This document shows positions 8,914 to 64,000 of a stretch of 64,000 nucleotides of DNA, one piece after another. The stretch lies in assembly GCF_016097555.1 (NCBI RefSeq), contig NC_054704.1:48645327-48709326 (forward strand), in the 5' to 3' direction. The first letter of the stretch is position 1. Every line of letters starts with the position of its first letter. The translations under genes and the position numbers were made by a program. This DNA is from Gigantopelta aegis. Lineage: Eukaryota > Mollusca > Gastropoda > Neomphalida > Peltospiridae. The notes beneath the pieces were generated by a model. It saw only the letters and a list, made by a program, of their open reading frames with translations, did no database searches and was not told the origin of the DNA.

Positions 8914-8941
8914 TATTTCATCAACTGTATTTATGTTTCAG

Positions 8942-15215: not shown

Positions 15216-15216
15216 C

Positions 15217-15725: not shown

Positions 15726-16692
15726 TCCATTTGATTTCTGCATATTATACAATTTGCATATTATACAACTTTGTAAATGTTTATTGGGTGTACATAACAG
15801 AACTTGTAATTACTTTGTTTATAGAGAATTGGGACGATTTCCACTAGCTATTATAAGAAAGCTGAGAATTTTTAAATATTGAATAAACCAGTAATTGCAT
15901 TTTAAAGGCTGTGTACGAGGAAATGTATGAGTATGGACATATTTGGCTAACGAATATTAAGCAGATATTAGATACGCTTGGGCTCAGTTATATGTGGAAA
16001 TCGACCCATACCCATATCTGTTTTTATTACATAATTAAAGAAAGAATATTTGATGTATTTAAACAAAAGTCCTACAGTTTAATAACAGGGTCGCCAAAAG
16101 GATCACTAAATAAACACTTAATAAAGGAATATCAATTACAAACATATCTGACGAAGCCAATTGATTCACGTAACATAAAAGAAATAACCAAATTGAGAAT
16201 TTGTGCACACAGGCTAAATATTGAAGCTGGTAGGTACAAATATATCGAGAGAACACAAAGAGTATGTACACTATGTAATATTAACGAGATTGAGGATGAG
16301 TTTCATTTTATTCTTCAGTATCTACGGTACGAAACTTTAAGAAATAGATTTATTAAGAAATACTACTCCAAGAACCCCAGTGCTTTTAAACTAATACAGC
16401 TATTGTCAACTACAAACAATAAGGAGATAAATAACCTTGGCAAATACTTACTACAGGCGAACAAAATGAGGGATATGCTATTACTACAAACAACTTAATA
16501 TTTCTATATTTGTGTGACCCATATAGCTGATTGTTTATATATAGATATAGATGGATTGTTTTATTGGTATATGTGTTTGCATTTATATAAGTTATTCTCC
16601 ATTGTTCGGCACTATTGTACATAATATTGTATTTCATTGTTATAATGCTGATAACTTGCAAAACTTAACGCAATAAAGAACTTGAACTTGAG
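15720..16692 (+). mobile_element. LINE C-terminal region and 3' end, duplication A
   Basis: Open frame 15911-16498 (195 codons) reads LRICAHRLNIEAGRYKYIER, then CTLCNINEIEDEFHFILQ, then RNRFIKKYYSKNPSAFKLIQ. This is the C-terminal zinc-finger-like region (C-x2-C...H) seen after the RT of some animal non-LTR elements. Just upstream, another frame gives RELGRFPLAIIRKLRIFKYW, from the same protein. The 3' end is AATAAAGAACTTGAACTTGA. 5' truncated, without RT or endonuclease. Confidence 0.7.
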
Positions 16693-16725
16693 CATAAAGT
16701 GCTTCTACGGACATTTGATGGAGCG

Positions 16726-16795
16726 AATTTTCCTATTTGCTCAATTAGTAGAGGTCTGGACCCTCATGTTGAAAGTCCGTGGTTCGAATTCCAAA
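16726..16795 (+). other. Degenerate tRNA-like sequence (also 31588-31658)
   Basis: CTCAATTAGTAGAGGTCTGG and GTGGTTCGAATTCC resemble tRNA A and B boxes at about tRNA spacing, but no acceptor stem pairs well. Probably a SINE head or tRNA pseudogene. Confidence 0.35.
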
Positions 16796-17059
16796 GAAAA
16801 TGGAGTTCGTAAGGTTATTATCATAATTATTTTATGTTTAATACATTTGGACTTCTCCAGCTCCTATTTTCGAAATCCTACCTGTTACCAAGCAAATTTG
16901 CCTCTTTTCATTGACTATTATTCCATGTTCGGGACAGTATCTTGAATGATTATTGCAAACCCCCACCCCCCACCCCACCCATGTTTATGATGTAAAATAA
17001 GTGAAATTATAGCAGATCCACAATATTAATTTCATCTTAATTTAGTGTTTGTGCTTATA

Positions 17060-17282
17060 TCTAATTAAGGTTCAAGCACGTTGTCCTGGGCACAACCTAA
17101 GCTGTCTGGGCCGTCTGTCCGGGATATTGGGTTAGTGGTTAGTGAGAGAGAAGAGGGTGTAGTGGTCTTACACCCACTCAGTCGTTAAAACTCGCTCTGA
17201 GTGGGAGCCGGTACCGGGCTGCGAATTCAGTACCTACCAGCCATTTTCCCGATGCCATAACCACACCACCGAGGCCTGTGAT
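17060..17282 (-). mobile_element. SINE-C, minus strand (A)
   Basis: Body ATCTAATTAAGGTTCAAGCA, GCCGTCTGTCCGGGATATTG and GGGAGCCGGTACCGGGCTGC with head complement CACCGAGGCC. Copy B is at about 31917-32145. Confidence 0.75.
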
Positions 17283-17383
17283 GGATGGATGGGAACTTTT
17301 TTTACGTGCCCATATCCAATGAAGGTTCAGGCACGCCCACCTCGGACTTAGCCTCTGACATCGGCAGATACTTTACCGGCCTC

Positions 17384-17530
17384 GGTGGCGTCGTGGTTAG
17401 GCCATCGGTCTGCAGGCTGGTAGGTACTGGGTTCGGATCCCAGTCGAGGCATGGGATTTTTAATCCAGATACCGACTCCAAACCCTGAGTGTGTGCTCCG
17501 CAAGGCTCAGTGGATAGGTGTAAACAGTTT
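17384..17530 (+). mobile_element. SINE-B head joined to LINE RNase H (A)
   Basis: GGCCTCGGTGGCGTCGTGG to GGCTCAGTGGATAGGTGTAA, then directly LINE sequence. Same at 32242-32395. The junction is shared by both duplication copies. Confidence 0.8.
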
Positions 17531-18068
17531 TTAATGGAAATTCAAGACAGGGACCGTGATTACATTCTTGTGTATACAGATGGATCATGGGATGGGAATT
17601 CTGTGGCTTGTGATACAGTTTTTCCATCAGACACAATACTTTCCATGAGACTGCCGGACTCAGCATCGATCTTTAGTGCTGAAGTTTGGGCAGTCATTAC
17701 AGCTTTGGAAAAAATAAAGGATTCTAGTGCATCCAAATTTATTATTTTTACAGACTCAATTTCGTGTCTACAAGCTTTACGCAATATGAAGCTGGATCAT
17801 CCCTTAATTGGGATGGTGATACGAAAGTGTGTCTTTTTATCTATTGCCAATAAAGATGTTGTATTTTGTTGGGTTCCCAGCCATGTTGGTATCAGGGGTA
17901 CTGAAAAGGCAGATTCTGCTGCCAAGTCTGCTTTGGATTTGCCTCATGCCAGGGTTGGTGTACCGTATACTGATTTTAAATATAGTATTAACAAATTTAT
18001 CTTTTGGACTGTTATCAACACTGTCACTGCTTGGTTCTCAGCAAATGTAAGGTGTATGCGTTTCACAG
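17530..18068 (+). mobile_element. LINE RNase H domain, duplication A
   Basis: The frame 17489-18136 carries an RNase H domain: YILVYTDGSWDG (catalytic D), SIFSAEVWAVITALEKI (E), FIIFTDSISCLQAL (D), then VVFCWVPSHVGIRGTEKADS AAK (H and D). All four to five key acidic and His positions are visible, so this domain alone is intact. The 5' side joins a SINE head at about 17530 and the 3' side ends at a C-run (18071-18096). I/Nimb-group non-LTR elements have RNase H here. Confidence 0.75.
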
Positions 18069-18217
18069 TCATCAATACCCCCCCCCCCCCCCCCCCCTCC
18101 CACCGTCTCGTAGGCTTATGGCTAACATCATTCTAACCTCAATATTATTTGTAATCCATGCGTAGTGACTCGTTTGCAGCCGTATATAGCTGTTTCGCAG
18201 TAATACGAATATGAATG

Positions 18218-18832
18218 AATGAATGAATGAATGTTTAACGACACCCCAGCACGAAAAATACATCGGCTATTGGGTGTCAAACTATGGTAAAATGCAACAA
18301 CAATGTGATGATCATCATCAATATAAAAATTCAACAGTTAAATAAAAACACAGTGTAAAGGACTGTATAAAAATACAAATATCACAGATATATATAATTA
18401 AAAAAGTATCACGTAAAAATTGTAGAATAAGTTCTGGATGGAATCGAAAGGATTACATCACAGTTCGTAGTCCAAATATATCTTTTCGAATTGCTTTCAG
18501 ATGGGTACACTCTACCGAAATGTGTCGCACAGTCAAAAGACACCGACAGTGCTCACACTGAGGTGGAGGATGTTTCTTTAAGATAAATGAATGGGTTAAA
18601 TATGGAATATGAATTAATTCGTGCAAAAACCAGCCTGCTCCTTCAAAATGGGAGCCACAGAATTCCCTTCCCCTGATCCATCTGTATACACAGGAATGTA
18701 ATCACGGTACCCGTCTTGAATTTCTATGAAAAACTGTTTGTACACAATAGCATCTGTACGATCTTTCTTCAGATGCGTAAGATGAAACACAATGTTAGGG
18801 GTTGTAATCCTCTCCCCCCCCCCCCCCCCCAA
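18218..18832 (-). mobile_element. RNase H LINE 3' end, minus strand, internally deleted, A
   Basis: On the minus strand: HLTHLKKDRTDAIVYKQFFI then IPVYTDGSGEGNSV, a jump past most of RNase H, then LTHSFILKKHPPPQCEHC and the 3' region with GAATGAATG tail at 18218. It faces the + copy at 17530. Confidence 0.65.
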
Positions 18833-19399
18833 TACTGGAGCAGAACCTTAAATTCGTGCAAAACTGATAAAAATATTATGGCAAAATGTGTTAACCTGAG
18901 ACCGCTTTACGATGCATTTCCATCAAAATTAGTTGTAATCCATGTAAAAATGTGCAGTGATTCGTTTGAAACCCTATATAGCTGTTTGATAGTAATGCTA
19001 ATATCAATAAATGGTTTATTCAGATTCGGGCAAAAGCCTGCCTGCCCCCCCTACAAAAATGGGAGCCCGTACGTCTATGATGTTAGCACATTTTGCCCGA
19101 ATTCCTGGATTTTTTTTACACCTGAATTTGAGGTTTTGCTCCAGCACCGGGGGGGGGGGGGGGGGGGGGGGGGGTTGCCCCCGTTTCTCGTACGTTTTTC
19201 CTGTTGTGTGAAGCCACCTTACTCCGCCAAGCTTGTGTTTAAACAAGGCTGAAACACAACATCCATTGTTATCAGTAATATACACGTTACTTAACGATCT
19301 ACTGATCTGTTATTTTCCTCCATACCCGTGAGGTATGATCTAATCAGAAAAAAACCGAACATTATTTTCTAAATCCAGTTTTATGGGAGATATACAAAA

Positions 19400-19530
19400 A
19401 AAACCACCCCTGACCTGAGGCAAATCCAAAGCAGACTCGGCGCTGAATCTGCCTTTCCATTACCACTGATACCAACAACATATGTCTTTATTGCCATTGG
19501 ATAAAACGACGCACTTTCGTATGACCATCC
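19400..19530 (-). mobile_element. LINE RNase H remnant, minus strand (A)
   Basis: The minus strand gives HPLIGMVIRKC...WKGRFSAESALDLPQ-like fragments of the RNase H end. Duplicated at 34262-34395. Confidence 0.5.
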
Positions 19531-19576
19531 CAATTAAAGGATGTTCCAGCTTCTTATTACTCGTTTGTAAAGCTTT

Positions 19577-19991
19577 AAAGGGACCAAAAAAAGTCTCTCT
19601 GTTAGTCGATAACATCTTAAACATTGCAGCAAACTCAGGAATGTCCCTTTATGCATTGTACGATGTTTCCGACTAATAAAATACTTCTACAATTAAACTT
19701 GTATATTAAATATATATTTTGTTTTTTAGAATATCAGTGTCTGTATATTCAATGTGTTTCTGGTCGTCTTAATATTTGTAAGAAACCCAAACTGAAAATA
19801 TGTTTTAGGAAACAAAATGAACATTAACCTAGTACAAATATTAGAACGATCAGAAATACGTTTAATATACAGCCACAGCCACTTATATTCTAAACAAGAA
19901 AATATATTTAATATGTAAGTTTATTCGTAGAAACATTTTATTAGTCGATAACATCTTTAACAATTGCAGCAAACTCAGGAATGTCTCTTTA
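19577..19991. mobile_element. Foldback MITE family P, two fused partial copies (duplication A)
   Basis: A shortened copy (19577-19652, both ends present) runs directly into a second copy that lacks its first bases. The same arrangement is at about 34437-34850 in duplication B. Confidence 0.7.
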
Positions 19992-20390
19992 AGCCATGAA
20001 ACTGAACCTGTGAAAATAATAAACTTGGATACAATAGAATTCTCCGTCGATGTTTAGAGTGTTAGCACATCACCGATAGTTTTAAGTTTGATTTCCTTCT
20101 TGCTGGAATTCATTGTGTTCAAAAAGGTAATTTGCACATGACTGAAAACCCATCTTTAAGAAGGACATATTGCTGTAGTTGTTTGGATAATGGCTTTAAT
20201 CAACTTATTATACATGTATGTGTCAACCTCGGCATGTGTAATTACCTCAAGTCGAACGAGCACATTTTACATATTTCTAGTGACATGCTCAGGGTTGAAA
20301 ATTAGCAGCCACCCGTTCGCCCTTTATAGGTTAAGGGCGACAAAGAATTTTAGAAAGGCAGTCCGTTGGGCATCTATCGAGTTTAGAAAG

Positions 20391-22950: not shown

Positions 22951-23293
22951 TCTATTTACGGAAGGTCATATGACTGGTTTTTGACGAATAACAATACAGA
23001 TATATATGCATTATGTAATAAATAATAACTATACCATTTCATTGTGTTTAATAGAATACCATGTTCATGTCAACTCATGGTATGTGTAAGTCATATTTTC
23101 ACTTATTGGTTCGCAATTCGTAAAAAAATATGGTTTTCACTCATCAGTCGTAAAAATAAAAATCGTATTCGTACAAAAACCCACAACAACATGTACTTGC
23201 GCTTGAAATGATAATATATCGGTAATAGCGCGTATCCCTAGAAATGACCAGATACTAATTACACATAATGACTGTTTTACTTTATAAACGCAG

Positions 23294-23598
23294 TGGAATA
23301 TTTCGCCGGACTGCACAAGTTGAACGACCATACGATGTGGATGTGGATTGACCCTAACGCAGTGGACCCTAACTCGCTACAAGCATTCTTGGATTTGGGA
23401 AATGTGGGTGGTGATGATGACTCAGACGACCACCGTCTATCTTTGAAGCACCAAACAAGTGGCGACGACGGCAGCACTGGGGCATTTGTATGGCACCCAG
23501 AGGATTGCATTGATAACCACGTGTATATTTGTGAGGTCAGTCCGACCTTTCCACAACCGACATGCAACCCGTGTTCCTTCGACCATTCTTGCCAATAA
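23294..23598 (+). CDS. Gene 1 terminal exon: C-type lectin domain, C-terminal part
   Basis: Acceptor ACGCAG ends at 23293. The open frame gives Y-F-A-G-L-H-K-L-N-D-H, then MWMWIDP, a long acidic loop with G-D-D-D-S-D-D, then C-I-D-N-H-V-Y-I-C-E-V and a stop at 23596-23598. W-x-W, and C...YICEV near the end, are typical of the second half of a CTLD. No EPN or QPD sugar-binding triplet and no WND motif are seen, so calcium-dependent sugar binding is doubtful. The tail after ICEV has three more cysteines (CNPCSFDHSC). Entry phase 1 fits the other exons. Confidence 0.75.
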
Positions 23599-24015: not shown

Positions 24016-24492
24016 AAGTAGCTTACAATGTTGTTGTGTTTTCGCCATTTATTGTTTTAACTATTCATCATTAAAGTTACATTCCCTGGTTACCATATTA
24101 TAACATCATGTACAAATATGAAATACAAGCTCAAATGCACTTTTAAAAAAGTCGTGTGTCTTCGCTATGAACGGATATCGTCAAACGTATACGCTTTATT
24201 CGTCGCCTGTAACGCCATAGCTCGGCAAAGCACACACGACAGCATGTTGTCAGTTTCAGCTAACACGTGCGTTTGCCGATTTCAAATTGTAGGGTTCGTC
24301 TCAAAAAATTAAAAGAGAAATCTTGCGCTGTACGAAGAACGTTCGGTTGAGGATACGGTACTAGTCTTTAGTTAACATCGGTTTAATCTTGACAACGTAT
24401 TATCGACAGTCGTACCTTCCTATTTCAGAATCAATATTTTATAAAGTGTTAGTAGAACTTTCAAATGTTAGTTTGTATACTAGTAATACATT

Positions 24493-29163: not shown

Positions 29164-29236
29164 GTTGTTAATAAGGCAGTATGTAGCAGTACTAGTACTA
29201 ATTATGGATCGGAAGTCTGGGGTTTTCACTCAGCAC

Positions 29237-30275
29237 TAGGGGTGCAACGATACGATCAAAACCGTATTGCGATATATTGCGATACGACAAACCGTATTGC
29301 AGTATGTATTGCGATATATATCTGATATTTATGGATTTGTTTAATGAAGGCAGAAGCGAAACAAATCCAATTGTGTAAATTTAACATAATGAAATAAATA
29401 AATGAAAGGAATAAAATGTATGAATTTTAATTACCATATATATATATATATAACGTACGAGTATTCAGTACTGTGTCCAGAAAGTTAATAACAGATAACA
29501 CCATTGGGACATTTGACAGCTTGAGATAACTCCAGGGAACATTTTTGTACTCTACTAGGACCTACCTTTAATTACCGGTAGATTTCCTCCAGACAAAAAT
29601 CGTGAGAAAAAAACCCAAACCAACATTACAATGACAAATATTCCACATACTAGACGGTCACCTATATCGAGGGGCGACCGGTAGCCCAGTGGTAAAGCGT
29701 TCGCTTGATGCGCGGTCGGTCTAGGATCGATCCCCGTCGGTGGACCCATTGGTCTATTTCTCGTTCCAGCCAGTGCTCCACAACTGGTGTAACAAAGGCC
29801 GTGGTATGTACTACCCTGTCTGTGGGATGGTGCATATAAAAGATCCCTTGCTGCCTGACGTAAAAGAGTAGCTTATGTGGCGACAGCGGGTTTCCTCTAA
29901 AAAACAATGTCAGAATGACATATGTTTGATGTCCAATAGCCGATGATAAGATAAAAAAAAAATCAATGTGTTCTAGTGGCGTCGTTAAATAAAACAAACT
30001 TTACTTTACTATATCGACTTCGATATGATCTCCTAGGCTAAAAAGCATGTACTTTTTCGCCTGCTCCCAGTTCGTGCCATCGCTAAGTTAAAGTCACCGC
30101 GTAAACAGACGAGTGGTATGCATGGTTATTTGCACACTTTCTGTTTGTTTGTCAAATAAGATACAAGAAAACAATAACGTGTAAAAATCGCGATACACAA
30201 AACTGTACCGCGGTTCGTATCGAGCTGATGGATCATCGCGATATACCGGTATACCGCTTTATCGTTGCAGCACTA
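29237..30275. mobile_element. hAT-like non-autonomous element with nested SINE, copy B
   Basis: Same element, same nested SINE (29672-30003) and same 8-bp flanks CTCAGCAC (29229-29236, 30276-30283) as 13873-14918. It was therefore duplicated after insertion. Confidence 0.8.
29672..30003 (+). mobile_element. SINE-A, full length (duplication B)
   Basis: Counterpart of 14315-14645; differs by a few bases in the head. Confidence 0.88.
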
Positions 30276-30584
30276 CTCAGCACACCCCTGCGTGTGCCTT
30301 AACCTCACCGTGGTGCAGGGGTGTAACATTCTCTTTGAGAATGGACAATACAGCACAACATTGAAGTTTTGAGTAAAAGTCAGTATCTATCTGTGATATT
30401 TGTGTTTTTGCACAGTTCTTTACACTGTGTTTTTGGTTTAAATCTTGAATTTTTTTATTGTAGTTGATCATCACTTAATTTGTTTGCATTACCATAGTTT
30501 GACACCCAGTAGCCGATGTTTTGTTCGTGCTGGGGTGTCGTTAAACATTCATTCATTCATTCATTCATTGTAACGAGATGTCAA

Positions 30585-31553
30585 TTTGATTTCTGCATAT
30601 TATACAATTTGCATATTATACAACTTTGTAAATGTTTATTGGGTGTACATATCAGAACTTGTAATTACTTTGTTTATAGAGAATTGGGACGATTTCCACT
30701 AGCTATTATAAGAAAGCTGAGAATTTTTAAATATTGAATAAACTTCGGTAGTACCAGTAATTGCATTTTAAAGGCTGTGTACGAGGAAATGTATGAGTAT
30801 GGACATATTTGGATAACGAATATTAAGCAGATATTAGATACGCTTGGGCTCAGTTATATGTGGAAATCGACCCATACCCATATCTTTTTTATTACATAAT
30901 TAAAGAAAGAATATTTGATGTATTTAAACAAAAGTCCTACAGTTTAATAACAGGGTCGCCAAAAGGATCACTAAATAAACACTTAATAAAGGAATATCAA
31001 TTACAAACATATCTGACGAAGCCAATTGATTCACGTAACATAAAAGAAATAACCAAAATGAGAATTTGTGCACACAGGCTAAATATTGAAGCTGGTAGGT
31101 ACAAATATATCGAGAGAACACAAAGAGTATGTACACTATGTAATATTAACGAGATTGAGGATGAGTTTCATTTTATTCTTCAGTATCTACGTTACGAAAC
31201 TTTAAGAAATAGATTTATTAAGAAATACTACTCCAAGAACCCCAGTGCTTTTAAACTAATACAGCTATTGTCAACTACAAACAATAAGGAGATAAATAAC
31301 CTTGGCAAATACAGGCGAACAAAATGAGGGATATGCTATTACTACAAACAACTTAATATTTCTATATTTGTGTGACCCATATAGCTGATTGTTTATATAT
31401 AGATATAGATGGATTGTTTTATTGGTATATGTGTATGCATTTATATAAGTTATTCTCCATTGTTTGGCACTATTGTACATAATATTGTATTTCATTGTTA
31501 TAATGCTGATAAGTTGCAAAACTTAACGCAATAAAGAACTTGAACTTGAGCAT
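30585..31553 (+). mobile_element. LINE C-terminal region and 3' end, duplication B
   Basis: Same element as 15720-16692. The frame from 30860 is open for 155 codons with the CTLCNINEIEDEFHF core and ends earlier (an 11-base-scale difference near 31310). It retains bases (CTTCGGTAGTA) lost near 15888 in copy A. Confidence 0.7.
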
Positions 31554-32394
31554 AAAGTGCTTCTACTGACATTTGATGGAGCGAATTTTCCTATTTGCTC
31601 AATTAGTAGAGGTCTGGACCCTCATGTTGAAAGTCCGTGGTTCGAATTCCAAAGAAAATGGAGTTCGTAAGGTTATTATCATAATTATTTTATGTTTAAT
31701 ACATTTGGACTTCTCCAGCTCCTATTTTCGAAATCCTACCTGTTACCAAGCAAATTTGCCTCTTTTCATTGACTATTATTCCATGTTCGGGACAGTATCT
31801 TGAATGATTATTGCAACACCCCCCCCCCCCCCCACCCCCACCCATGTTTATGATGTAAAATAAGTGAAATTATAGCAGATCCACAATATTAATTTCATCT
31901 TAATTTAGTGTTTGTGCTTATATCCAATTAAGGTTCAAGCACGTTGTCCTGGGCACAATCTAAGCTATCTGGGCCGTCTGCCCGGGATATTGGGTTAGTG
32001 GTTAGTGAGAGAGAAGAGGGTGTAGTGGTCTTACACCCACTCAGTCGTTAAAACTCGCTCCGAGTGGGAGCCGGTACCGGGCTGCGAATTCAGTACCTAC
32101 CAGCCATTTTCCCGATGCCATAACCACACCACCGAGGCCTGTGATGGATGGATGGGAACTTTTTTTACGTGCCCATATCCAATGAAGGTTCAGGCACGCC
32201 CACCTCGGACTTAGCCTCTGACATCGGCAGATACTTTACCGGCCTCGATGGCGTCGTGGTTAGGCCATCGGTCTGCAGGCTGGTAGGTACTGGGTTCGGA
32301 TCCCAGTCGAGGCATGGGATTTTTAATCCAGATACCGACTCCAAACCCTGAGTGTGTGCTCCGCAAGGCTCAATGGATAGGTGTAAACAGTTTT

Positions 32395-32930
32395 TAATAG
32401 AAATTCAAGACAGGGACCGTGATTACATTCTTGTGTATACAGATGGATCATGGGATGGGAATTCTGTGGCTTGTGATACAGTTTTTCCATCAGACACAAT
32501 ACTTTCCATGAGACTGCCGGACTCAGCATCGATCTTTAGTGCTGAAGTTTGGGCAGTCATTACAGCTTTGGAAAAAATAAAGGATTCTAGTGCATCCAAA
32601 TTTATTATTTTTACAGACTCAATTTCGCTTTACGCAATATGAAGCTGGATCATCCCTTAATTGGGATGGTGATACGAAAGTGTGTCTTTTTATCTATTGC
32701 CAATAAAGATGTTGTATTTTCTTGGGTGCCCAGCCATGTTGGTATCATGGGTACTGAAAAGGCAGATTCTGCTGCCAAGTCTGCTTTGGATTTGCCTCAT
32801 GCCAGGGTTGGTGTACCGTATACTGATTTTAAATATAGTATTAACAAATTTATCTTTTGGACTGTTATCAACACTGTCACTGCTTGGTTCTCAGCAAATG
32901 TAAGGTGTATGCGTTTCACAGTCATCAATA
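32395..32930 (+). mobile_element. LINE RNase H domain, duplication B
   Basis: Copy of 17530-18068 with a small deletion near 32628 that splits the frame (32352-32642 and 32639-32989). The catalytic motifs remain readable. Confidence 0.75.
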
Positions 32931-33061
32931 CCCCCCCCCCCCCCCCCCCCTCCCACCGTCTCGTAGGCTTATGGCTAACATCATTCTAACCTCAATATTA
33001 TTTGTAATCCATGCGTAGTGACTCGTTTGCAGCCTTATATAGCTGTTTCGCAGTAATACGA

Positions 33062-33680
33062 ATATGAATGAATGAATGAATGAATGTTTAACGACACCCC
33101 AGCACGAAAAATACATCGGCTATTGGGTGTCAAACTATGGTAAAATGCAACAACAATGTGATGATCATCATCAATATAAAAATTCAACAGTTAAATAAAA
33201 ACACAGTGTAAAGGACTGTATAAAAATACAAATATCACAGATATATATAATTAAAAAAGTATCACGTAAAAATTGTAGAATAAGTTCTGGATGGAATCGA
33301 AAGGATTACATCACAGTTCGTAGTCCAAATATATCTTTTCGAATTGCTTTCAGATGGGTACACTCCACCGAAATGTGTCGCACAGTCAAAAGACACCGAC
33401 AGTGCTCACACGGAGGTGGAGGATCTTTCTTTAAGATAAATGAATGGGTTAAATATGGAATATGAATTAATTCGTGCAAAAACCAGCCTGCTCCTTCAAA
33501 ATGGGAGCCACAGAATTCCCTTCCCCTGATCCATCTGTATACACAGGAATGTAATCACGGTACCCGTCTTGAATTTCTATGAAAAACTGTTTGTACACAA
33601 TAGCATCTGTACGATCTTTCTTCAGATGCGTAAGATCAAACACAATGTTAGGGGTTGTAATCCCCCCCCCCCCCCCCAAT
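33062..33680 (-). mobile_element. RNase H LINE 3' end, minus strand, B
   Basis: Counterpart of 18218-18832 in the second duplication copy. Confidence 0.65.
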
Positions 33681-34436
33681 ACTGGAGCAGAACCTTAAAT
33701 TCGTGCAAAATGATAAAAATATTCGGGGTGTTAACCTGAGACCGCCCCGATGCCCATCAAAAATTAGTTGTAATTCATGTAAAAATGTGCAGTGATTCGT
33801 TTGAAACCCTATATAGCTGTTTGATAAAATGCTAATATCAAAAATATTCAGATTCGGCCAAAAAGCCTGCCTGCCCCCCTACCAAAAATGGGAGCCCGTA
33901 CGTCGATGATGTTTCACGATTTGCATTACCTGGATTTTGTTTACACCTGAATTTGAGGTTTTGACTCCAAATTTTTATATTTCTGACCAAGGATGTTGGT
34001 GGGAGGTTGGGGGGGGGGGGGGGGTGCCCCCGTTTCTCGTACGTTTTTTTAGTGCCTGTTGTGTGGTGTCGTGGCCACCTTACTCCGCCAAGCTTGTGTT
34101 TAAACAAGGCTGAAACACATATCCATTGTTATCAGTAATATACACGTTACTTAACGATCTACTGATCTGTTATTTTCCTCCATACCCGTGAGGTATGATC
34201 TAATCAGAAAAAACCCGAACATTATTTTCTAAATCCAGTTTTATGGGAGATATACAAAAAAACCCCACCCCTGACCTGAGGCAAATCCAAAGCAGACTCG
34301 GCGCTGAATCTGCCTTTCCATTACCACTGATACCAACAACATATGTCTTTATTGCCATTGGATAAAACGACGCACTTTCGTATGACCATCCCAATTAAAG
34401 GATGTTCCAGCTTCTTATTACTCGTTTGTAAAGCTT

Positions 34437-34850
34437 TAAAGGGACAAAAAGTCTCTCTGTTAGTCGATAACATCTTAAACATTGCAGCAAACTCAGGAAT
34501 GTCCCTTTCTGCATTGTAAGATGTTTCCGACTAATAAAATACTTCTACAATTAAACTTATATATTAATTTTTTTATTTTTTTTTAGAATATCAGTGTCTG
34601 TATATTCAATGTGTTTCTGGTCGTCTTAATATTTGTAAGAAACCCAAACTGAAAATATTTTTTTAGGAAACAAAATGAACATTAACCTAGTACAAATATT
34701 AGAACGATCAGAAATACGTTTAATATACAGCCACAGCCACTTATATTCTAAACAAGAAAATATATTTAATATGTAAGTTTATTCGTAGAAACATTTTATT
34801 AGTCGATAACATCTTTAACAATTGCAGCAAACTCAGGAATGTCTCTTTAA
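34437..34850. mobile_element. Foldback MITE family P, two fused partial copies (duplication B)
   Basis: Counterpart of 19577-19991 with the same junction, so it arose before the duplication. Confidence 0.7.
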
Positions 34851-35589
34851 GCCATGAAACTGAACCTGTGAAAATAATAAACTTGGATACAATAGAATTC
34901 TCCGTCGATGTTTAGAGTGTTAGCACATCACCGATAGTTTTAAATTTGATTTCCTTCTTGCTGGAATTCATTGTATTCAAAAAGGTAATTTGCACATGAC
35001 TGAAAACCCACCTTTAAGAAGGACATATTGCTGTAGTTGTTTGCATAATGGCTTTAATCAACTTATTATACATGTACGTGTCAACCTCGGCATGTGTAAT
35101 TACCTCAAGTCGAACGAGCACATTTTACATATTTCTAGTGACATGCTCAGGGTTGAAAATTAGCAGCCACCCGTTCGCCCTTTATAAGTTAAGGGACGAC
35201 AAAAGGCAGTCCGTTTTAGAGTTTGAAGCCGAAAAGCAGTCCGTTTTAACGACGCATCTATTTACGTTATATGGCGTAAGACATCTGGTTAAGAGTATGA
35301 GAGGAATGAATTAACTCTTCCGATTGGCAAATGTTTTTTAACAGTGTACCCCAGCAACCAAAAATACATCACTGGCTATTGAGCCCAGCGGAGTCAAACT
35401 ATGGTAAAAAATGCAAGAAAAGTGCCCGTGATGGCCTGCCACGACGCCACCGAGGCCGGTCTATCGAGTTTAGGGTCTGGCTGTGAGTATGGATAAAATT
35501 CAACAGTGTTTAAACCCCCCAAAAAAAATACATTTCCTATTGGGTGTAAACTATGACTGCAAGAAAAGTGTATGAAATCATACAAATAT

Positions 35590-36443: not shown

Positions 36444-37141
36444 TTTAAAGTTACAGTGTCTGGTTACCATATAATAATATCATGCACAAATATGAAATAC
36501 AAGTTCAACTGCACTTTTAAAAAATTCGTGTGTGTTTCGCTATGAACGGAGAATGTCAAAAGTATACACGCTCGATTCGTCGTCTGTGCGGCCATTGCTC
36601 GGAAAACCACAAACGACAGCCTGTTGTAAATTTCAGTTAACAGGTGCGTTTGCGGATTTGAAATTGTAGGGTTCGTCTCAAAAAATGAAATGATAATGTG
36701 CTCTACAAAGAACGTTCGGTTGAGGATACGTACTATTCTTTCGTCAAAACCGGTTTTGATCTTCATAACGTACTATCGACAATCGTACCTTCCTATTTAA
36801 GAATTAATATTTTATAAAGTGTTTGTAGAACTTTCAAAGTTTAGTTTGTATAACACATTGATCATGTATACATGTATATATTTTTAATAAAATATACTAA
36901 AGTAGAAAATAACCGTTTTACGTGTGGTAAAATCGACAAATTCAAATAAATATTATTTCGTTTGGAAAGGGTAAAGTTAGTTTGTTTTGTTTAATTACAT
37001 CAGTGTTAGAGCATATTGATTTAATAATCATCTGCTTTTGGATGTCAAACGTTTGGTAATTTTGACATGTAATCTAAGAGAGGAAACGGGCGCATGTGCA
37101 GGGGGAGGGTATTGAGGGTCGAAACCCTTCCCTGACCAAAA

Positions 37142-42700: not shown

Positions 42701-45700
42701 TACGAGTTTGATACATAACGGTGATCTCCTACACGGGTGTCTAAGAAGGTCAATTTCTTTTGGTAATTTTGACCTGCTAAACGTAATTTTTTAGAAGGCC
42801 AGCATATTTTATCGGATTCAGTATACCCAGATTAGGTTAGAAAAGTATGTGGGATATAATCCTAAAGGAATCCTCGGACATAATAAATAAGCACCTTTCT
42901 GAGAAATGGGACTTGACTATCATGAGTAATGAAAAGGTAGATGCAGGTGCCACGTCTGCCGTGGATTAGCCTCATGTCAAAACAAAATATATCTCAGCCG
43001 AAATGTAGTGCAACAGTTTACTTTATGAAATTAAAAACGTGATTGTTTGGGGGTTGGTACGTTGAGTGATATTATTTCAGTCAATCTATTCATTTATGAC
43101 AAGACTGTAAACAACGCTTTTTGTGCTTGCTGTTGACTTACACGTCATAAATTAATCAGTTTCAATTTCACTTATGTCTCCGAAAAATCCATTTTGTTCC
43201 TACTCATTTTATTGGGCAGTAAGTATGGCTGTGGCGACCGGGAGAAGCCAATCAGATGTCATCAAATCGATATCCAACTAGTGAGAGTTCGCTATGAGAT
43301 AACATAAATCTCAACCGGGTGTGTTAGCAAATTATATATTCGTATTCAACAATTCACAATAAAGTTAACAAAATGTTAGAAGATTAAATGTTTTACGTTA
43401 TGTTAATTTTCTTCATTAATACATTTTATACCAATCTGTTTTGTTTCAGATGAAGCTTTTCTGGGTTACCTTACTCATTATAGTTGCTGTTGGAACTGCA
43501 TACGGTAAGTCATGTCTTGCAAAAATACGATAATCAGTAACTCAAAAACGCCATTGTAATCAAAATGTGAATCGTTATGCTTGTTCCGTCCGAGTTTTTT
43601 TCCAGGATGAATCGAATTGACTGGTGTCATTTATTAATAATAATATGTCTGTACAACATTTACAGTTCCTTACTCAAAATATGTTATGCACGTCTATACC
43701 AGACGCTGGTCCAAGGGGAGGACGCTAAAGTGCAACTTTCCGTACAAAAATAATACATCACGACCACCCCTGTGTATGCGCAGTCAGATGTTTCTTTGTT
43801 TACGTAAGCTGTAGAAAGTTATTCGGCAGGTGCACTGGCGCACGCTATACAGTGCCAATACTCTATATAACACGAGAACGCCATGGCTGCATACTCTAAA
43901 ACCTCTTTCATGACTTCTTTTAGAATCGGTCTATGTAGAGATACGGTATGCCAATGGCAAATTCATTAACTGTCCATACTGTTTTTGATGTTTTACTGTC
44001 GCGCGCTTTTGGTTAGGTTACAGCTTAACACAGTATATAAAATTTTAACCCAAACTGCATGTTCTATATTCCAGCTGCTCGTCAAGCACCAACAAGACCT
44101 GTAAAGCATACAACTAGCCTTATCCTAACTGGTAGCGATTTTTAAAAATAATAATTATAAACTATTGATTTCAGTCGCTGTATCCCAAAAGGATGCGACA
44201 GATTAATTTAGTCTAGCGTGTGAAACCATACCGATGAGAATTTATTCTATATTTTTCGCGCGACTCCAGCGACAAAAGCATATTAACCAGTCATGTTTGC
44301 AGTAAGATGATAGAGCAATTCATACATACCCAGATCAAGTTTCACTTGGCGGCTTTAACCGGACGCTACCATAGCAACAGTCGCAATGTTGAAACAGTCG
44401 GCCATCACTGAAATCGCCGAAAATGATACTTGTTTGGGTATGTATAAAAAGCTTCATCATATTATTGCAAAGCTACCTATGGATATCAGTAAACAGTCAT
44501 GAGATGAAATTACAAACACATTACATAGTTATATTATTTTTAACAGTGGATGCCTTTCGAATAGAAATTGTTGTCTTGTTTGTGTTTTGCTTTATTTGAT
44601 CACGGCGAAGCCTGACCGCAAGTTTAAACATTTTACTGGGATTCGCTTTGATCTATTCTAGGCGCAAATGTCGCTCAAGGAGCCAACGCCAGACAGAGTT
44701 CAACATGGAAGAAAATGTACACAGCAGACCAGGCCGTGGACGGGAACACGGGCAAGGTGTTCTTTCAGGACACGTGTACACACACCAACTGTAAAGACAA
44801 GAACCCTCACTGGACTGTGTGTCTGGGAGAGAAGCACACCATCAACTCTGTTACTATCCACAACCCAGATAAAGCACGTACGCTTAAACTATAATAATTG
44901 TATATAGATTCTCACTGGAGAATTATTACAAATTTCATGTCACAAAACATGTTTCACTGAATAATTATTACAAATTTCATGTCACAAAATATGTTTCACT
45001 GGAGAATTATTACAAATTTCTTGTGTGACAAAATATGTGTAAAGAACTGTTTGTAAAGAAATCTTTTAAATTAGCACTTTTGGGGACGGTCAACTTTAAA
45101 TGATATACTAGTAATTACCGACATCTTAATAAAGTCGTTACCACTTAATTTTGCAGTTTCGTTTTACGTATTTTCTGTTTTAGACGGCCGCTTGAAGAAC
45201 ATCAAGATTGAAGTGTTCGAAACTGATCCTAGCAAGCCTGGTGCAGTGGCCCAACCTTGTGCAACTATAGGTTCCACACCCGTTGCTGCTGGAATTGCTG
45301 TGACTGTGACATGTCCAATTAACACAAGAGGTCAATACATCAGAATCAGCAAGACTGTGACTTCGTGGCACAATTATAAATGCGATGCACTACTTCTTTG
45401 TGAAGTTGACGTAGATGGGACACCATATGGTAAGTTTAATAACAAATGCGATACACTACTTCTTTGTGAAGTTGACGTAGATAGGACACCATATGGTAAG
45501 TTTAATAACAAATTCGATGTGCTACGTCTTTGTGAAGTTGACGTAGATGGGACACCATATGGTAAGTTTAATAACAAATGCGATGCACTACTTCTTTGTG
45601 AAGTTGACGTTGATTGGGACACCATATGGTAAGTTTAATAACAAATGCGATGCACTACTTCTTTGTGACGTTGATTGGGACACCATATGGTAAGTTTAAT

Positions 45701-46778
45701 AACAAATGCGATACACTACTTCTTTGTGAAGTTGACGTAGATAGGACACCATATGGTAAGTTTAATAACAAATTCGATGTGCTACGTCTTTGTGAAGTTG
45801 ACGTAGATGGGACACCATATGGTAAGTTTAATAACAAATGCGATGCACTACTTCTTTGTGAAGTTGACGTTGATTGGGACACCATATGGTAAGTTTAATA
45901 ACAAATGCGATGCACTACTTCTTTGTGACGTTGATTGGGACACCATATGGTAAGTTTAATAACAAATGCGATGCACTACTTCTTTGTGAAGTTGACGATG
46001 ATGGGACACTATATGGTAAGTTTAATAACAAATGCGATGCACTACTTCTTTGTGAAGTTGACGATGATGGGACACTATATGGTAAGTTTAATAACAAATG
46101 CGATGCACTACTTCTTTGTGAAGTTGACGTTGATGGGACACCATATGATAAGTTTAATAACAAATGCGATGCACTACTTCTTTTTCATCTTGACGTTGAT
46201 GGGATACCGTCTACAGGCTGGTAGGTACTGGGTTCGGATCCCAAAACAAGATCAAACCGGTTTCAACTAAAGACTCGTACAGCGCAATATTTCTCTTTTA
46301 ATTTTTTTAGACGAACCCTACAATTTGAAATCGTCAAACGCACGTGTTAACTGAAACTAACAACAAGCTGTCGTTTGTGCTTTGCCGAGCTATAGCGGCA
46401 CAGGCGACGAATCAAGCGTATACGTTTGACGATATCCGTTCATAACGAACACACACGACTTTTTTAAAAGTGCATTTGAGCTTGTATTTCACATTTGTAC
46501 ATGATGTTATAATATGGTAACCAGATAATGTAACTTTAAATGTGTGGTATAGCAGGACTGCGATTTGCGTTTTGTTTACGATCTATTTAACAAAGATTGA
46601 ATTTTTCAGCTGACTGTCCCAAAGGATTTCAACGAAATCAAGATTCCTGCTATCTCTTCGCCGATGATAGTGTTGAATCATGGTTTGAAGCACGGGTATA
46701 GTTTTATTTAATATTCTGTCGACCTGACAGCTCTGCTATTTTGAACTAAATTTAAACTCACTCACTCACTCTCTCTCG

Positions 46779-46812: not shown

Positions 46813-48080
46813 GCGTGATGTTGCCACAGTAGGTGTCTGTGTAAAAACAATTCAGAAATCGCAATGCATTAAACTATTAATTAATTAGTAGTCTGTCAGA
46901 GAGTATCACCTATTTTTGATTACAGATTGCCTGTCAGACCATGGGAGCCGATCTCGTCGTTATCGATAGTCAATCTGAAAATGATTTCATAAGATCCGTC
47001 CTAGATGCTGGTGATCAGAATTGTAAGTATATACCTTAATCACTCATTCATTCATTCATTATTATCGAACTTATATCCATTTAAGCTCAATCATGCTTTC
47101 CTGGACCCCCGACCCCCCAAAAAAACCCCAAACAAAACAACCCCAACAACAACAACAAAAAACTATCTTTCCAGGACAGTAGGCTAGTGATTAGTGTGAT
47201 AGAAGTCGGTGCACTGACTTTAAATCGGGAGGCGAAGCCAGTACCTATCAGCCTTATGCAGATGACTTAACCACTAAACCACCGAGGCTGGTCTTAATCA
47301 CTTGCGGCATCTACGCTATGGGACGACGGGAAAATTGATAACGTGGTGAAAAAAAAGTGATTGTGTGTGTGGAGGGGGAGGGGGGGGGGGCATGGCCTTC
47401 ATATTACGTCTTACAGGGATTAAAAATAATCTAGTAGTATTATGTTTTCATAGTTATTTTTGATGAAAAACAGTAATGTCATCATACATGGATATCAGAT
47501 TTCACTGTAAATTATGTCTCAAATTAGAAGGCTGCCAATTCAAATTAGGTGGTTATTTTAAAGAGACTTCGCTTAAACGAAACTCTTTTTCCAATAAAAC
47601 TGATTACCAGTATAAAGATTGAAAGAGTGTATGTAACATGATAATACGAATCTTCCATTACCATATAAAAGACGATAGGGGCCTAACTGTATTTCTGCAC
47701 AAGACGGATTCCAAAACCGGTTAAGAAAATTGTGATGGTATATGCTAAAAACCTTTATACAGCTTCCTTAAATAAAAGGACCTCTGAATCAGCTCAGGGA
47801 TGTGCACACAACGATATTTAAAGCAAGGAACCATAAGTATTTACATAACGTTACCAAAGTTATTTAATCTGTACCGTATTTAAGATGCAAAACATAATCA
47901 GTGCAAACGTTCCATAGCCAATGAAATTCGACTGCTACCGGCTTATTGTAATATGCCTACATTTACGTATGTAAATAATTTCCTCTGATATATTATGGTA
48001 CATATGATTCAGGTGATTTTACTGAAACAGTTACTTGTTAAATTACTGTTCTATTTCCAGGTTGGTTTTGGACCAGATAA
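39684..48080 (+). CDS. Lectin gene 2: secreted F-type lectin + truncated C-type lectin
   Basis: Exons: non-coding about 39714-39757, signal peptide 43450-43504, F-lectin 44662-44877 and 45184-45429, CTLD 46610-46695 and 46926-47022, and a decayed CTLD exon 48061-48080. Phases agree throughout. The protein would be a signal peptide, a complete F-type lectin domain of about 155 residues, and the first half of a CTLD (ADCPKGF...DSCYLF...ACQTMGADLVVIDSQSENDF). The last exon reads C-W-F-W-T-R then stop. It resembles the gene 1 terminal exon loosely (CAAGxTxAAC shared), so the CTLD is cut short. The end of the second F-lectin exon sits in a minisatellite with many alternative donors. No full terminal CTLD exon was seen before 59 kb. 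Confidence 0.65.
40131..40515. mobile_element. Foldback MITE family P, full copy in gene 2 first intron
   Basis: AAAGGGACATTCCTGAG to CAGGAATGTCCCTTT, flanked by TTAA on both sides. A CGTACGTACG palindrome marks the centre. Confidence 0.82.
40584..41669. mobile_element. hAT-like element, about 1.1 kb
   Basis: Starts CAGTTGAAAATTAGCAG and ends TTAATTTTCAACCCTG, imperfect inverted repeats. Flanks are CCTATTTA (40576-40583) and CCTATTCC (41670-41677). It holds a TC-rich tract near 41380-41410 and a minus-strand frame (40952-41152) with no recognised domain. Partial copies of the left end are at 20292-20365, 35149-35190 and 35975-36105. Confidence 0.6.
42000..42622 (+). mobile_element. Tc1-like deletion derivative interrupted by a LINE 3' end
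   Basis: Same family as the element at 60250-61038: CTTGAATCTGGGACCTCGC start, QVRDRPRSDRPPVTTPRQD, then GGHTRY-type C-terminus near 42240-42268. It is shorter still. Near 42352 the sequence switches to a Nimb-type LINE 3' end and returns at about 42604 to the Tc1 terminus (CAATAACTTTTGCCTTT), so the LINE tail inserted into it. Confidence 0.65.
42352..42604 (+). mobile_element. RNase H LINE (Nimb/I-like) 3' end
   Basis: It contains the element's 3' untranslated region ending CACCCAATAGCCGATG ... TGCTGGGGTGTCGTTAAACA and an (ATTC)n tail. It is inserted in the Tc1 derivative. Confidence 0.7.
42830..42985 (+). mobile_element. LINE RNase H remnant
   Basis: A short decayed reading, SNEKVDAGATSAVD then PHVK, matches the GTEKADSAAKSALDLPHA stretch of the RNase H domain at 17900-17950. 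Badly decayed. Confidence 0.4.
43450..43504 (+). CDS. Gene 2 exon 2: signal peptide
   Basis: The 55-nt exon between TTTCAG and GTAAGT encodes MKLFWVTLLIIVAVGTAY plus the first base of a glycine codon. It is a clear hydrophobic signal peptide and is aligned in length and phase with genes 1 and 3. Confidence 0.85.
44662..44877 (+). CDS. Gene 2 exon 3: F-type lectin domain, first half
   Basis: The 216-nt exon encodes ANVAQGANARQSSTW, then YTADQAVDGNTGK, DTCTHTNC and PHWTVCLGEKHTINS, ending VTIHNPDKA. Acceptor ATTCTAG, donor GTACGC. It is the closest of the three to the family pattern. The paired CTHT...C and WxVxL residues are present. Confidence 0.88.
44915..45040 (+). repeat. Three 42-bp tandem units in gene 2 intron
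   Basis: GAATTATTACAAATTTCATG repeats with period 42 (starts 44915, 44957, 44999). Confidence 0.85.
45184..45429 (+). CDS. Gene 2 exon 4: F-type lectin domain, second half, with amplified 3' end
   Basis: Acceptor TTTTAG. The first donor GTAAGT is at 45430 (exon 246 nt). It encodes GRLKNIKIEVFETDP, CATIGSTPV, TCPINTRGQYIRISKT and CDALLLCEVDVDGTPY. If the first donor is skipped, the frame stays open through the next two 66-bp units and into a third. Each adds a 22-residue repeat (core LLCEVDVDGTPYGKFNNK), so longer isoforms are possible. The donor chosen cannot be told from the sequence. Confidence 0.8.
45364..46200 (+). repeat. Exon-boundary minisatellite: 61-67 bp units, each with a splice donor
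   Basis: About 13 tandem units span the end of F-lectin exon 4 and the start of its intron. GT of the donor motif ATATGGTAAGTTTAAT occurs at 45430, 45496, 45562, 45629, 45690, 45756, 45822, 45889, 45950, 46016 and 46082. A twelfth has GT changed to AT (46148). Steps are 66, 66, 67, 61, 66, 66, 67, 61, 66, 66, 66. The four steps summing to 260 bp repeat, so 45431-45690 and 45691-45950 form a higher-order duplication. Most units are 22 codons long. Confidence 0.93.
46290..46545 (-). repeat. Inverted copy of the 24.08-24.31 kb repeat
   Basis: Reverse complement of the start of segment A2 (for example TTTGAAATCGTCAAACGCAC here against its complement near 24270-24290). It sits just upstream of the gene 2 CTLD exons. 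Confidence 0.7.
46610..46695 (+). CDS. Gene 2 exon 5: C-type lectin domain, start
   Basis: The 86-nt exon between TTTTTCAG and GTATAG, entered in phase 1, reads ADCPKGFQRNQDSCYLFADD then SVESWFEAR. C-P-x-G-F/W...SCY-x-F...W-x-E-A is the standard opening of a CTLD. Confidence 0.8.
46926..47022 (+). CDS. Gene 2 exon 6: C-type lectin domain, middle
   Basis: The 97-nt exon between TTACAG and GTAAGT reads IACQTMGADLVVIDSQSEND then FIRSVLDAGDQN. A-C-Q-x-M-G-A-x-L-x-x-I-x-S-x-x-E-N-x-F-I is the canonical CTLD helix-2 segment. Confidence 0.82.
48061..48080 (+). pseudogene. Gene 2 exon 7: decayed C-type lectin exon
   Basis: A good acceptor (CTATTTCCAG) ends at 48060 and phase 1 is kept, but the frame reads C-W-F-W-T-R and stops at 48078. 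Short nucleotide similarity to the start of the gene 1 terminal exon continues past the stop, which points to a decayed exon rather than a natural end. No AATAAA follows closely. Confidence 0.5.
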
Positions 48081-50435: not shown

Positions 50436-50635
50436 NNNNNNNNNNNNNNNNNNNNNNNNNNNNNNNNNNNNNNNNNNNNNNNNNNNNNNNNNNNNNNNNN
50501 NNNNNNNNNNNNNNNNNNNNNNNNNNNNNNNNNNNNNNNNNNNNNNNNNNNNNNNNNNNNNNNNNNNNNNNNNNNNNNNNNNNNNNNNNNNNNNNNNNNN
50601 NNNNNNNNNNNNNNNNNNNNNNNNNNNNNNNNNNN
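50436..50635. other. Assembly gap (200 N)
   Basis: A run of exactly 200 N: a fixed-size scaffold gap of unknown true length. It lies between genes 2 and 3, so exons could be hidden there. Confidence 0.98.
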
Positions 50636-61822: not shown

Positions 61823-64000
61823 TTGGATCAATTTCGATACAGAATTCACCAATAATCTTACTAAATGTTCTGACGACTTTTCTGGTTCTGAAATAGGCAA
61901 TGGCGAGTTTTTTGTTGGTGGTGGTGTTGGGGTAGGGTGGGGTGTTGTTTTGTGATACAGGTTTTGTTTGGGGGGGGGGGGGTTCTGGGGGTTGTTTTAT
62001 TTTCTATTTTCATTTTTTTAAATAATAGCTGTTGGTTACAACATCATCTTGAAAGTTAATTTCCCTCCTTCTTTTGTTCTAGGGGCAAATGTTGCCCAAG
62101 GAGCTACAGCTACCCAGAGTTCCACGTGGCGTGGGATATACACAGCAGACCGAGCCGTGGACGGGAACACTGGAAAGACTTTCTTTCAAGACACGTGTAC
62201 ACATACCGCCTGCAACGACCCGAATCCTTACTGGACGGTGAATCTTGGACGAACTCACAACATCAACTCTCTTACTATCCACAACCCAGACCAAGCACGT
62301 ACGTTCATGATAATTTAGGGTGTATACCACCAAATGAAATTCCACAGACGGTAATAGTAACATATGTGGCTAAAACTCCTACATGCAGCGTATCAATCGA
62401 CATATACACCATGGATATAAATAATACCAACCCTCACCCTTAAAATAAATCAGAAAACAATTTGAGGTTAAGCTGATCATTTCAGAGATATCGGGTAGCG
62501 TCTATGACTACCGAATGCATTGGTGGGCATTGGGCCGAATTTACACTCATGTAACTACAAACATTGACAACCCTCCAGGCTTCGTAAATTCGGCCCAATG
62601 TCATTTGGTAATAGTACTAATTCTTCTATCAATGTTCAAGCGAGTATACAGGGAGTATAAAGGGAAATTGTGCAAGGGGGGTCTGTATTGTGGTGAGCAA
62701 TGTATTTTGGATGCTCAAGTCATGTTAACTCCCAAAACAGTTTTTAAATCCCTTGGAGCATTCCATTCTCAATGAAATAATCGTATATGGTGTACATGCC
62801 CAAAACGCCATCCGCACACACATCAGACGTAACACGCGGACCGCACGCACGTACGTACGGTATCCAGTCTATATGAGACTTTGGTTTAGCATACTACGCC
62901 TTTTCATGAAGTCGCAGCTTCGACCAGATTATTTTGACGTATTATTGTATTTCAAGCGTCAGCTCAATTATTGAAACAAGATGACATGTCTACCCTCGAT
63001 TCATATATCTGTTTCAGGAGGTCGCCTGCACGACGTCAAGATTGAAGTATTCGCAACGGACCCCGCTACCGGAGGCGGTAAGATCATATTTAAACATAAC
63101 GGTAAAACATCACTAACGCCAAAACAAAGATTTTTCTTTAATAATCCACAGTTTAATAACAAACCATGTGAAAACTAAAAATACAAATAAACACATTCTG
63201 AGAAATAAAATAGAATCCGCGTCAACTATGATTGTACACCTTTAAATATTATTACCACTCTTTTTTTATATATATATATATAGCCAGAAATTATTTTTGT
63301 TCTTTTGTTCATGCATTCTCCTACTTCGTTTTTAACATTATAAAGTGTGCCTATCAATTCATAAATGAAATAAATTAATTGTTTATCACTCAAGAACTTT
63401 ACACAGGTAATATGTATGTAAGAGGGGCGGGACGTAGCCCAGTGGTAAAGCGCTTGCTTGATTCACAGTCGGTTTGGGATCGATCCCCATCTGTGGGCCC
63501 ATTGGGCTATTTCTTGTTCCAGCCAGTTCAACACAACTGGTATATCAAATGCCGTGATATATGCTATCCTTCTCTGTGGGATGGTGCATATAAAAGATCC
63601 CTTGCTGCTAATCAGAAAGAGTAGCCCATGAAGTGGCGACAGCGGGTTCCCTCTCTCACTATCTATGTGGTCCTTAACCATGTGTCCGACGCCATATAAC
63701 CGTAAATAAAATGTGTTGAGTGCGTCGTTTCCTTCCTTTTATTTATGCGAGATTCCATTACATTTGTCAGTGGTCAAAGGGACTTAACCCTTTCCATCAT
63801 AATTACGTTTTTCGTTTTATCTTAAAATAGATAATACTGGTTACTAGCTGTTAAAAATATAAAATACTAGTATTGTTCAAAAAGTAGCTTATAATCTAAT
63901 TATGACAGATACGTTATACATACGTGGGGCGGGACGTAGCCCAGAGATAATGCGTTCGTCTGATGACAGATCGGTCTAGGATCGATCCCCGACAGAGGGT
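59100..64000 (+). CDS. Lectin gene 3: F-type lectin gene, incomplete at window edge
   Basis: Exons: non-coding about 59150-59195, signal peptide 60117-60171, F-lectin 62083-62298, and a short exon 63018-63077. The first half of the F-type lectin domain is intact. The second half differs: after GRLHDVKIEVFATDPATGG a donor GTAAGA occurs 60 nt into the exon, where genes 1 and 2 continue for about 190-200 nt more. The rest of the domain (CATIGS...LLCEVDV) is not found before 64000. So this copy has either gained an intron here or lost the rest. A CTLD would lie outside the window. Confidence 0.6.
59105..59195 (+). promoter_or_regulatory. Gene 3 promoter region and non-coding first exon
   Basis: AT-rich TATA-like stretches (ATATATAT near 59108; TTAAATA near 59131) precede a short exon ending TTTCAAG at 59195, then GTAAGA. 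The position is set by analogy with genes 1 and 2. Confidence 0.4.
59380..59668 (+). mobile_element. SINE-A, + strand, in gene 3 first intron
   Basis: Degraded head, then GGTCGGTCTAGGAACGATCC, ATATCAAAGACCGTGGTATG and the GTGGTGTCGTTAAACAAAAC tail. Confidence 0.75.
59780..60010 (-). mobile_element. SINE-A, minus strand, in gene 3 first intron
   Basis: GGAGGAAACCCGCTGCATTT, GGGATCTTTTATATGCACTT and CGATCCTCCAACACAAGC. It ends about 100 bases before the signal-peptide exon. Confidence 0.7.
60117..60171 (+). CDS. Gene 3 exon 2: signal peptide
   Basis: The 55-nt exon between TTTTCAG and GTAAGT encodes MMFACIGLIFVFAAQNAY plus one base. Same length, phase and A-Y-G ending as the other copies. Confidence 0.78.
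60250..61038 (+). mobile_element. Tc1-like element with internal deletion
   Basis: The frame 60268-60771 contains the Tc1-type N-terminal DNA-binding part: NVHRNTIWHLRQRYQQ, then VRDRPRSGRPPVTTLRQD, then IRTTHLQNRFQPASLTART. After a short gap, 60790-60846 in another frame reads MRRRCQACINAQGGHTRY and stops, the family's C-terminus. The whole DDE catalytic core between them is missing. The 3' part ends near CAATAACTTTTGCCTTT (about 61038). It lies in the gene 3 intron. A sister copy is at 42000. Confidence 0.7.
61764..61819. repeat. Poly-T run in gene 3 intron
   Basis: About 55 bases, almost all T, within a G/T-rich low-complexity stretch 61510-61990. Confidence 0.95.
62083..62298 (+). CDS. 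Gene 3 exon 3: F-type lectin domain, first half
   Basis: The 216-nt exon reads ANVAQGATATQSSTW, YTADRAVDGNTGK, DTCTHTAC and PYWTVNLGRTHNINS, ending LTIHNPDQA. Acceptor GTTCTAG, donor GTACGT. WTVNLG is closer to the usual W-x-V-D-L than the WTVCLG of genes 1 and 2. Confidence 0.85.
62307..62515 (+). repeat. Dispersed repeat related to the inside of the 921-2210 element, in gene 3 intron
   Basis: GTGTATACCACCAAATGAAA to GGGTAGCGTCTATGACTACC, starting a few bases after the exon 3 donor. Confidence 0.75.
63018..63077 (+). CDS. Gene 3 exon 4: F-type lectin, short exon
   Basis: Acceptor GTTTCAG ends at 63017, in phase 1. It encodes GRLHDVKIEVFATDPATGG, colinear with the start of exon 4 in genes 1 and 2, then meets GTAAGA. 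If not spliced, the frame runs on to a stop near 63176 with no lectin similarity. Confidence 0.55.
63424..63735 (+). mobile_element. SINE-A, full length, + strand
   Basis: GGGGCGGGACGTAGCCCAGT head, B box GGGATCGATCCCC, body, and the GTGTTGAGTGCGTCGTTTCC end. Confidence 0.88.
63924..64000 (+). mobile_element. SINE-A, head only, cut by window edge
   Basis: GTGGGGCGGGACGTAGCCCA to GGATCGATCCCC, then the window ends. Confidence 0.85.

Follow-up and report, generated by a model that had tools for sequence, protein, structure and literature searches.

A splice-donor minisatellite at a lectin exon of Gigantopelta aegis, and similar arrays at other lectin and kinase exons

How does an exon end when its splice donor stands in eleven tandem copies? 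The question is raised by a gene in a 64,000-nucleotide stretch of the Gigantopelta aegis genome (NC_054704.1, 48,645,327 to 48,709,326; hereafter the window, in whose coordinates positions are given). A first-pass annotation had described a minisatellite whose unit straddles the exon–intron border of the second F-type lectin exon of a gene called gene 2, and had proposed that use of later donors could lengthen the lectin and that copy-number change could alter its isoforms. The window has a GC content of ~37%, within an assembly of 1,149,253,464 bases; the genome report puts the size at 1.15 Gb, in 15 pseudo-chromosomes, and the GC content at 37.22%, and it includes expression data for the oesophageal gland, mantle, ctenidium, and foot (PMC7895826).

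The array lies in a recognizable lectin gene. Two plus-strand exons of gene 2, at 44662-44877 (open frame, AG before and GT after) and 45184-45429 (ending at the first donor), join in phase into an F-type lectin domain. The joined protein matches PF22633 (1.2e-14), striped-bass FBP32 (3cqo; 2.1e-20), and the eel lectin 1k12 (1.2e-10), and gene 2 is predicted on this sequence match to carry an F-type lectin domain of the FBP32/eel lectin kind. The repeated stretch encodes the closing strand, LLCEVDVDG, which aligns to LTLCEVEVHG of FBP32. The next two coding exons, read from their AG and GT on the plus strand (~46610-46695 and ~46926-47022), begin a C-type lectin domain (PF00059 positions 3-36, 8.4e-6). 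Within the window, neither tblastn with 70 C-type lectin exons nor a profile built from them located the final C-type lectin exon of gene 2, so gene 2 may be incomplete and its splicing inconsequential. A run of 200 N occupies 50436-50635.

The repeat proved to straddle the donor border of this exon, as the first-pass annotation had it. TRF reports 66 bp x 12.7 with a score of 1371-1462, far above chance, and the unit and donor listing resolves the plus-strand array (45378-46208) into 12 units and a decayed 13th. Unit lengths from a pattern scan are 66, 66, 66, 67, 61, 66, 66, 67, 61, 66, 66, and 66 bases, followed by the 54-base decayed copy. Each 66-base unit comprises 52 exonic bases (17 codons and one base) and 14 intronic bases, with the border placed by reading frame and paralogues, not RNA. 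All eleven donor positions listed earlier are correct, the G of GT lying at 45430, 45496, 45562, 45629, 45690, 45756, 45822, 45889, 45950, 46016, and 46082; these donors share an identical ATATG/GTAAGT (slash, border). The claim that every unit brings a full donor holds for 11 of the 12 full units: the twelfth reads AT, as had also been noted, and we place it at 46148-46149. The array has the structural features of a "mirage" minisatellite, a name given to such repeats in amphioxus: a tandem array, a border-spanning unit, and splice signals in many units.

Part of the array is internally identical. Units 2-5 and 6-9 form two plus-strand four-unit blocks of 260 bp (45444-45963) that are equal letter for letter (0/260 differences), giving a perfect 260-base period across 297 bases. 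Unit 10 equals unit 11, units 12 and 13 are distinct, and the unit tree has no starred branch. The assembly holds one full-length copy of the window locus. Just past the array, on the minus strand, lies a dispersed-repeat fragment (46275-46539) with 94% identity to 24071-24335 and 86% to 36444-36696, both on the reverse strand.

We joined each donor in silico to the acceptor side at 46610. Only donors 1-3 (45430, 45496, and 45562; plus strand) keep the frame open, adding 0, 22, and 44 residues. The proposal that later donors would add 22-residue copies thus holds in silico for donors 2 and 3, and the stated in-frame reading of the first units is correct as far as donor 3 and fails beyond it: donor 4, which follows a one-base insertion, yields TGA at the junction, and donors 5-11 would retain a TAA within the exon.

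To place the array among its relatives, we searched the genome with the protein of the gene 2 second exon and obtained 35 places, its own locus included; the 30 for which DNA was at hand were all inspected. An array covers the donor in 3 of these 30 second F-lectin exons—the window gene, C12:33782402, and C15:13014692—with the exon end approximate in more distant relatives and the match stopping before the exon does in L028-L030. The C12 array has the same repeat register as the window array and shows three donors before its fourth unit is interrupted by an LTR-type insertion; the rest of the split unit carries AT, the identical change to that in the twelfth window donor. The inserted element (L007, ~3848-9766) is flanked by a CACTG duplication and has the ends TGTCACGG and CCGTGACA. 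Beyond its final repeat unit, the C12 gene continues into intron with TTTAATTATGCTTGGGG, nearly the same as the TTTAATTATGCTGGGG that follows the one donor of a single-copy paralogue, L012. The C15 array (L035, 838-1514) consists of 46 bases x 15, with GT intact in 15/15 copies though other bases vary; it is unrelated to the window array, although it, too, sits at this exon end, in a distant F-lectin gene.

Single ancestry of the window (C6) and C12 arrays, suggested by the common register and AT, was considered and set aside, as the exon tree does not pair them. That tree groups L017 with gene 1 at 82/90 and leaves the position of gene 2 unsettled; in the unit tree only the C12 units group, and weakly (83/86). 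The two arrays may reflect one origin, gene conversion, or two births. Three further relatives (L029, L030, and L031) contain an 18-base coding minisatellite within the domain, past the end of the match to the window exon, which is another repeat-prone spot in the second F-lectin exon.

Gene 1 was said to have the donor once. This is true of its second exon (donor at 11870) and not of its first F-lectin exon, where a plus-strand 46-bp tandem duplication of 2.2 copies (10240-10340) gives donors at 10249 and 10295; read-through to the second meets TGA. The profile from the 70 C-type lectin exons finds a candidate last C-type lectin exon of gene 1 at 23272-23595, a segment to which Pfam assigned 0 families. 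Genes 1 and 2 have, between their F-lectin exons, a large direct duplication made up of two blocks with 98% and 96% identity (13826-20344 and 29190-35203). A third F-lectin gene has its first exons in 62082-64000; its second exon is seemingly split by an extra intron after ~63080, with the remainder just outside the window (L027).

Arrays straddling a donor or acceptor are found in 9 of 140 surveyed exons from F-lectins, C-type lectins, and kinases, a count in which L010/L017 and L051/L096 are pairs and hence not independent. Survey borders were taken from protein matches plus splice letters rather than RNA, and the gene 1 exon 1 duplication was left out. Among first F-lectin exons (20 of 79 rows, hand-picked among chromosome matches, with the donor side alone in view and the donor not confirmed in each), one of 20 has an array: L072, 150 bases x 3, where donors remain at 29, 179, and 480 and another has been lost. 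The 70 C-type lectin exons comprise the best 30 and 40 of the following rows of 150, the second part skipping rows that contain stops or lie on unplaced contigs, and two further rows. They include L063, with a 62-base donor array x 9 (GT intact in 9/9), and two loci with a common 51-base acceptor array: L051 (1684-3207), x 30 with AG intact in 29/30, and L096 (1-325), with 6.5 copies. In both, the true exon follows the last copy. The kinase set (20 of 136 rows: partial matches without stops on chromosomes) contributes L134, a protein kinase exon with arrays over both acceptor (1-324, 61 bases x 5.3) and donor (563-720, 41 bases x 3.9), and L143, whose motifs read like a MAP2K and which has an array over the acceptor. 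The nine exclude 3' arrays of the C-type lectin set at an apparent coding end rather than a donor (L104, L116, L117, L120, and L128), ambiguous cases (L091, L140, and L144), an array ending 7 bases short of the match (L127), one starting ~6 bases past the donor (L076), and the coding repeats inside the exons of L029-L031.

To ask whether the border itself is special, we counted, in the lectin sets, arrays crossing the match end by at least 10 bases (offsets 0-30) and compared them with flank 100-280 bases away. At the 3' end, arrays cross in 4-7/70 C-type exons vs 8-10/70 in flank, and in 3/30 F-type exons vs 3-6/30. On the acceptor side the counts are 2-3/70 C-type and 0/30 F-type, vs 4-5/70 and 1-4/30 in flank. 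Seven loci have C-type 3' arrays, of which one is at a clear donor, one is ambiguous, and five are at apparent coding ends, so this comparison is less informative about donors than the figures imply. Exon interiors are nearly free of arrays in the lectin sets. Enrichment at exon borders, a candidate we had considered, is not seen in either lectin set; there, arrays are not attracted to borders but merely not much kept away.

Repeat cover (period at least 20) is 2.5% over the window and 9.1, 0.0, and 6.4% in three other 8-10 kb stretches near F-lectin genes. Within 300 bases of exons it reaches 7-9% for lectins and 14% for kinases, and 22-35% on the acceptor side alone of the kinase exons (L130-L149). 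Enrichment of minisatellites next to exons is possible; in 60 loci with 1.5 kb flanks, near and far repeat cover differed in no consistent direction.

Nor did the splice letters stand out statistically. Variable columns in the window array number 1/14 in the intronic and 15/53 in the exonic part (p=0.16, not significant). In L035, L063, L051, and L096, respectively, 16, 49, 42, and 56% of the column pairs nearby are conserved no less than the splice pair. The intact pairs themselves (GT in 11/12 window units, 15/15 in L035, and 9/9 in L063; AG in 29/30 in L051) would also suit selection on splice signals.

Because arrays in the lectin sets reach exon ends no oftener than they reach flank, we regard the window array as probably a tolerated mirage minisatellite, in which the exon-bordering donor is mostly used and the other copies are tolerated as intron. 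It may have been born in a tandem duplication of ~66 bp that fused intron TTTAAT to exon AACAAATGCG at a 3-base match, AAT: given the C12 intron and the sequence after the L012 donor quoted above, the unit junction TTTAAT/AACAAATGCG looks like such an AAT-match duplication. With exon and donor kept whole in the upstream copy, later copies would lie in the intron, free to multiply, and their increase would include the recent duplication of the 260-bp block. We infer that splicing to 46610 proceeds mostly from the first donor. Were donor 2 or 3 used now and then, the lectin would gain 22 or 44 residues between the F-type and C-type domains; use of donors 4-11 would lead to a stop and probably to message decay. 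The extra units would on this account be neutral. Some observations sit uneasily with it: three units run in frame without a stop, as an isoform device would need, and the AT common to the last units of two arrays is not accounted for by simple drift.

The proposal that the array generates isoforms—the choice among donors 1-3 adding the 22-residue strand not at all, once, or twice, with unit number varying between animals and so diversifying an immune lectin—is improbable in our judgment. In its favour, the first three donors have the same sequence and preserve the frame, a recent change in length is suggested by the identical 260-bp block, and fucolectins are described as expanded and immunity-related in G. 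aegis (PMC7895826). Against this, an alternative-donor device would be expected to keep frame, and only 3 of the 11 donors do, the other eight leading to premature stops. Relative to unit 1, five residues are replaced in the two added units (A>T and G>R in unit 2; C>F, A>V, and L>R in unit 3), among them the strand glycine and cysteine, and by inspection of this small sample the added units give no sign of coding constraint. Elsewhere, the second unit of the C12 paralogue has 66 bases but the third has 71, and read-through stops occur in the added units of two other arrays, that of gene 1 exon 1 and, by eye, the 46-bp array of L035. What survives of the isoform reading is the in-frame status of donors 2 and 3.

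About as improbable is a regulatory sink, in which the donor row binds U1 or yields early-stop messages and unit number tunes the amount of lectin. Eight donors do lead to a stop, and under the U1 pairing rule all eleven offer seven consecutive U1-pairing bases; but the sameness of most donors is explained by their having been copied from one another, and 27 of 30 second exons have no array at the match end (an approximate exon end in distant relatives, and a short match in L028-L030). It is very unlikely that the assembler stretched an array which has fewer units in the animal, chiefly through the block: the two identical 260-bp copies would fit, as would the amphioxus mirage that a supplement legend records as aberrantly assembled in the draft genome (PMC3087553), but the units outside the block differ from each other, similar arrays occur at several loci, and the assembly is described as polished and built from PacBio reads of at least 8 kb after correction, several times the array length (PMC7895826), so that at most the unit number is doubtful.

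A wider reading goes beyond the tolerated array in the window, and we offer it as a tentative and rather doubtful one: mirages may be spread over the whole genome, affecting a few per cent of exons both in lectin genes, which evolve fast, and in conserved kinase genes. They could stem from a mechanism linked to the borders of transcribed exons, and the copy number of some of them might tune isoforms. If this reading were true, the genome would amount to a large natural experiment on how a splice site is chosen when tens of identical donors or acceptors are present. How one site is picked among equals has long been asked; where 10-30 near-identical sites adjoin a real exon, RNA reads would by themselves suffice for a direct test. 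If such arrays recur, exon ends may be called wrongly by gene predictors in Gigantopelta aegis and genomes like it, and tandem duplications that cover splice sites, for the most part tolerated, would often supply new isoforms and introns with their raw material.

The nearest known counterparts are the amphioxus mirages, and our literature search found arrays under that name for amphioxus only. In the portions of the two amphioxus papers drawn on here, mirages lie at 5' and 3' borders of the globin genes and Adh3, where the data suggest that regular splicing is undisturbed (PMC3087553), a conclusion reported in the second paper as well (PMC3902484), which adds PGBD5 and troponin C to the list. 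The mirage of BflGb6 has 6 and 3 units in two haplotypes (PMC3087553). The window array resembles those of Adh3, BflGb6, BflGb9, troponin C, and PGBD5 in that border-spanning units copy splice signals; the amphioxus arrays are described as homogenized within a cluster (PMC3087553, PMC3902484). The arrays of this genome differ in their setting—a gastropod, with lectins and kinases among the genes concerned—as well as in scale (up to 11-15 donors and 30 acceptors) and in the three in-frame units of the window gene.

Two other systems share parts of this pattern. In human segmental-duplication genes, variable internal tandem repeats at exon–intron boundaries are associated with 27 intron modifications, as summarized from De Grassi and Ciccarelli 2009 (PMC2812944). 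Those repeats are likewise minisatellites at exon–intron borders, there of recently duplicated paralogues, but are linked to new introns that transcripts support, whereas the window array is known from DNA. The intron gain through AG/GT tandem duplication proposed by Rogers, as cited in PMC3087553, has the same start, with splice signals copied in tandem; at the window array, unlike there, a new intron would be hypothetical. Each full window unit does contain a pyrimidine stretch and an AG (for example CTACTTCTTTGTGAAG) ahead of its donor, and use of this AG as an acceptor is speculation. Taken with the sources cited, the comparison suggests that the border-spanning array as a type is known from amphioxus and that its recurrence in lectin and kinase genes of the Gigantopelta aegis genome is new.
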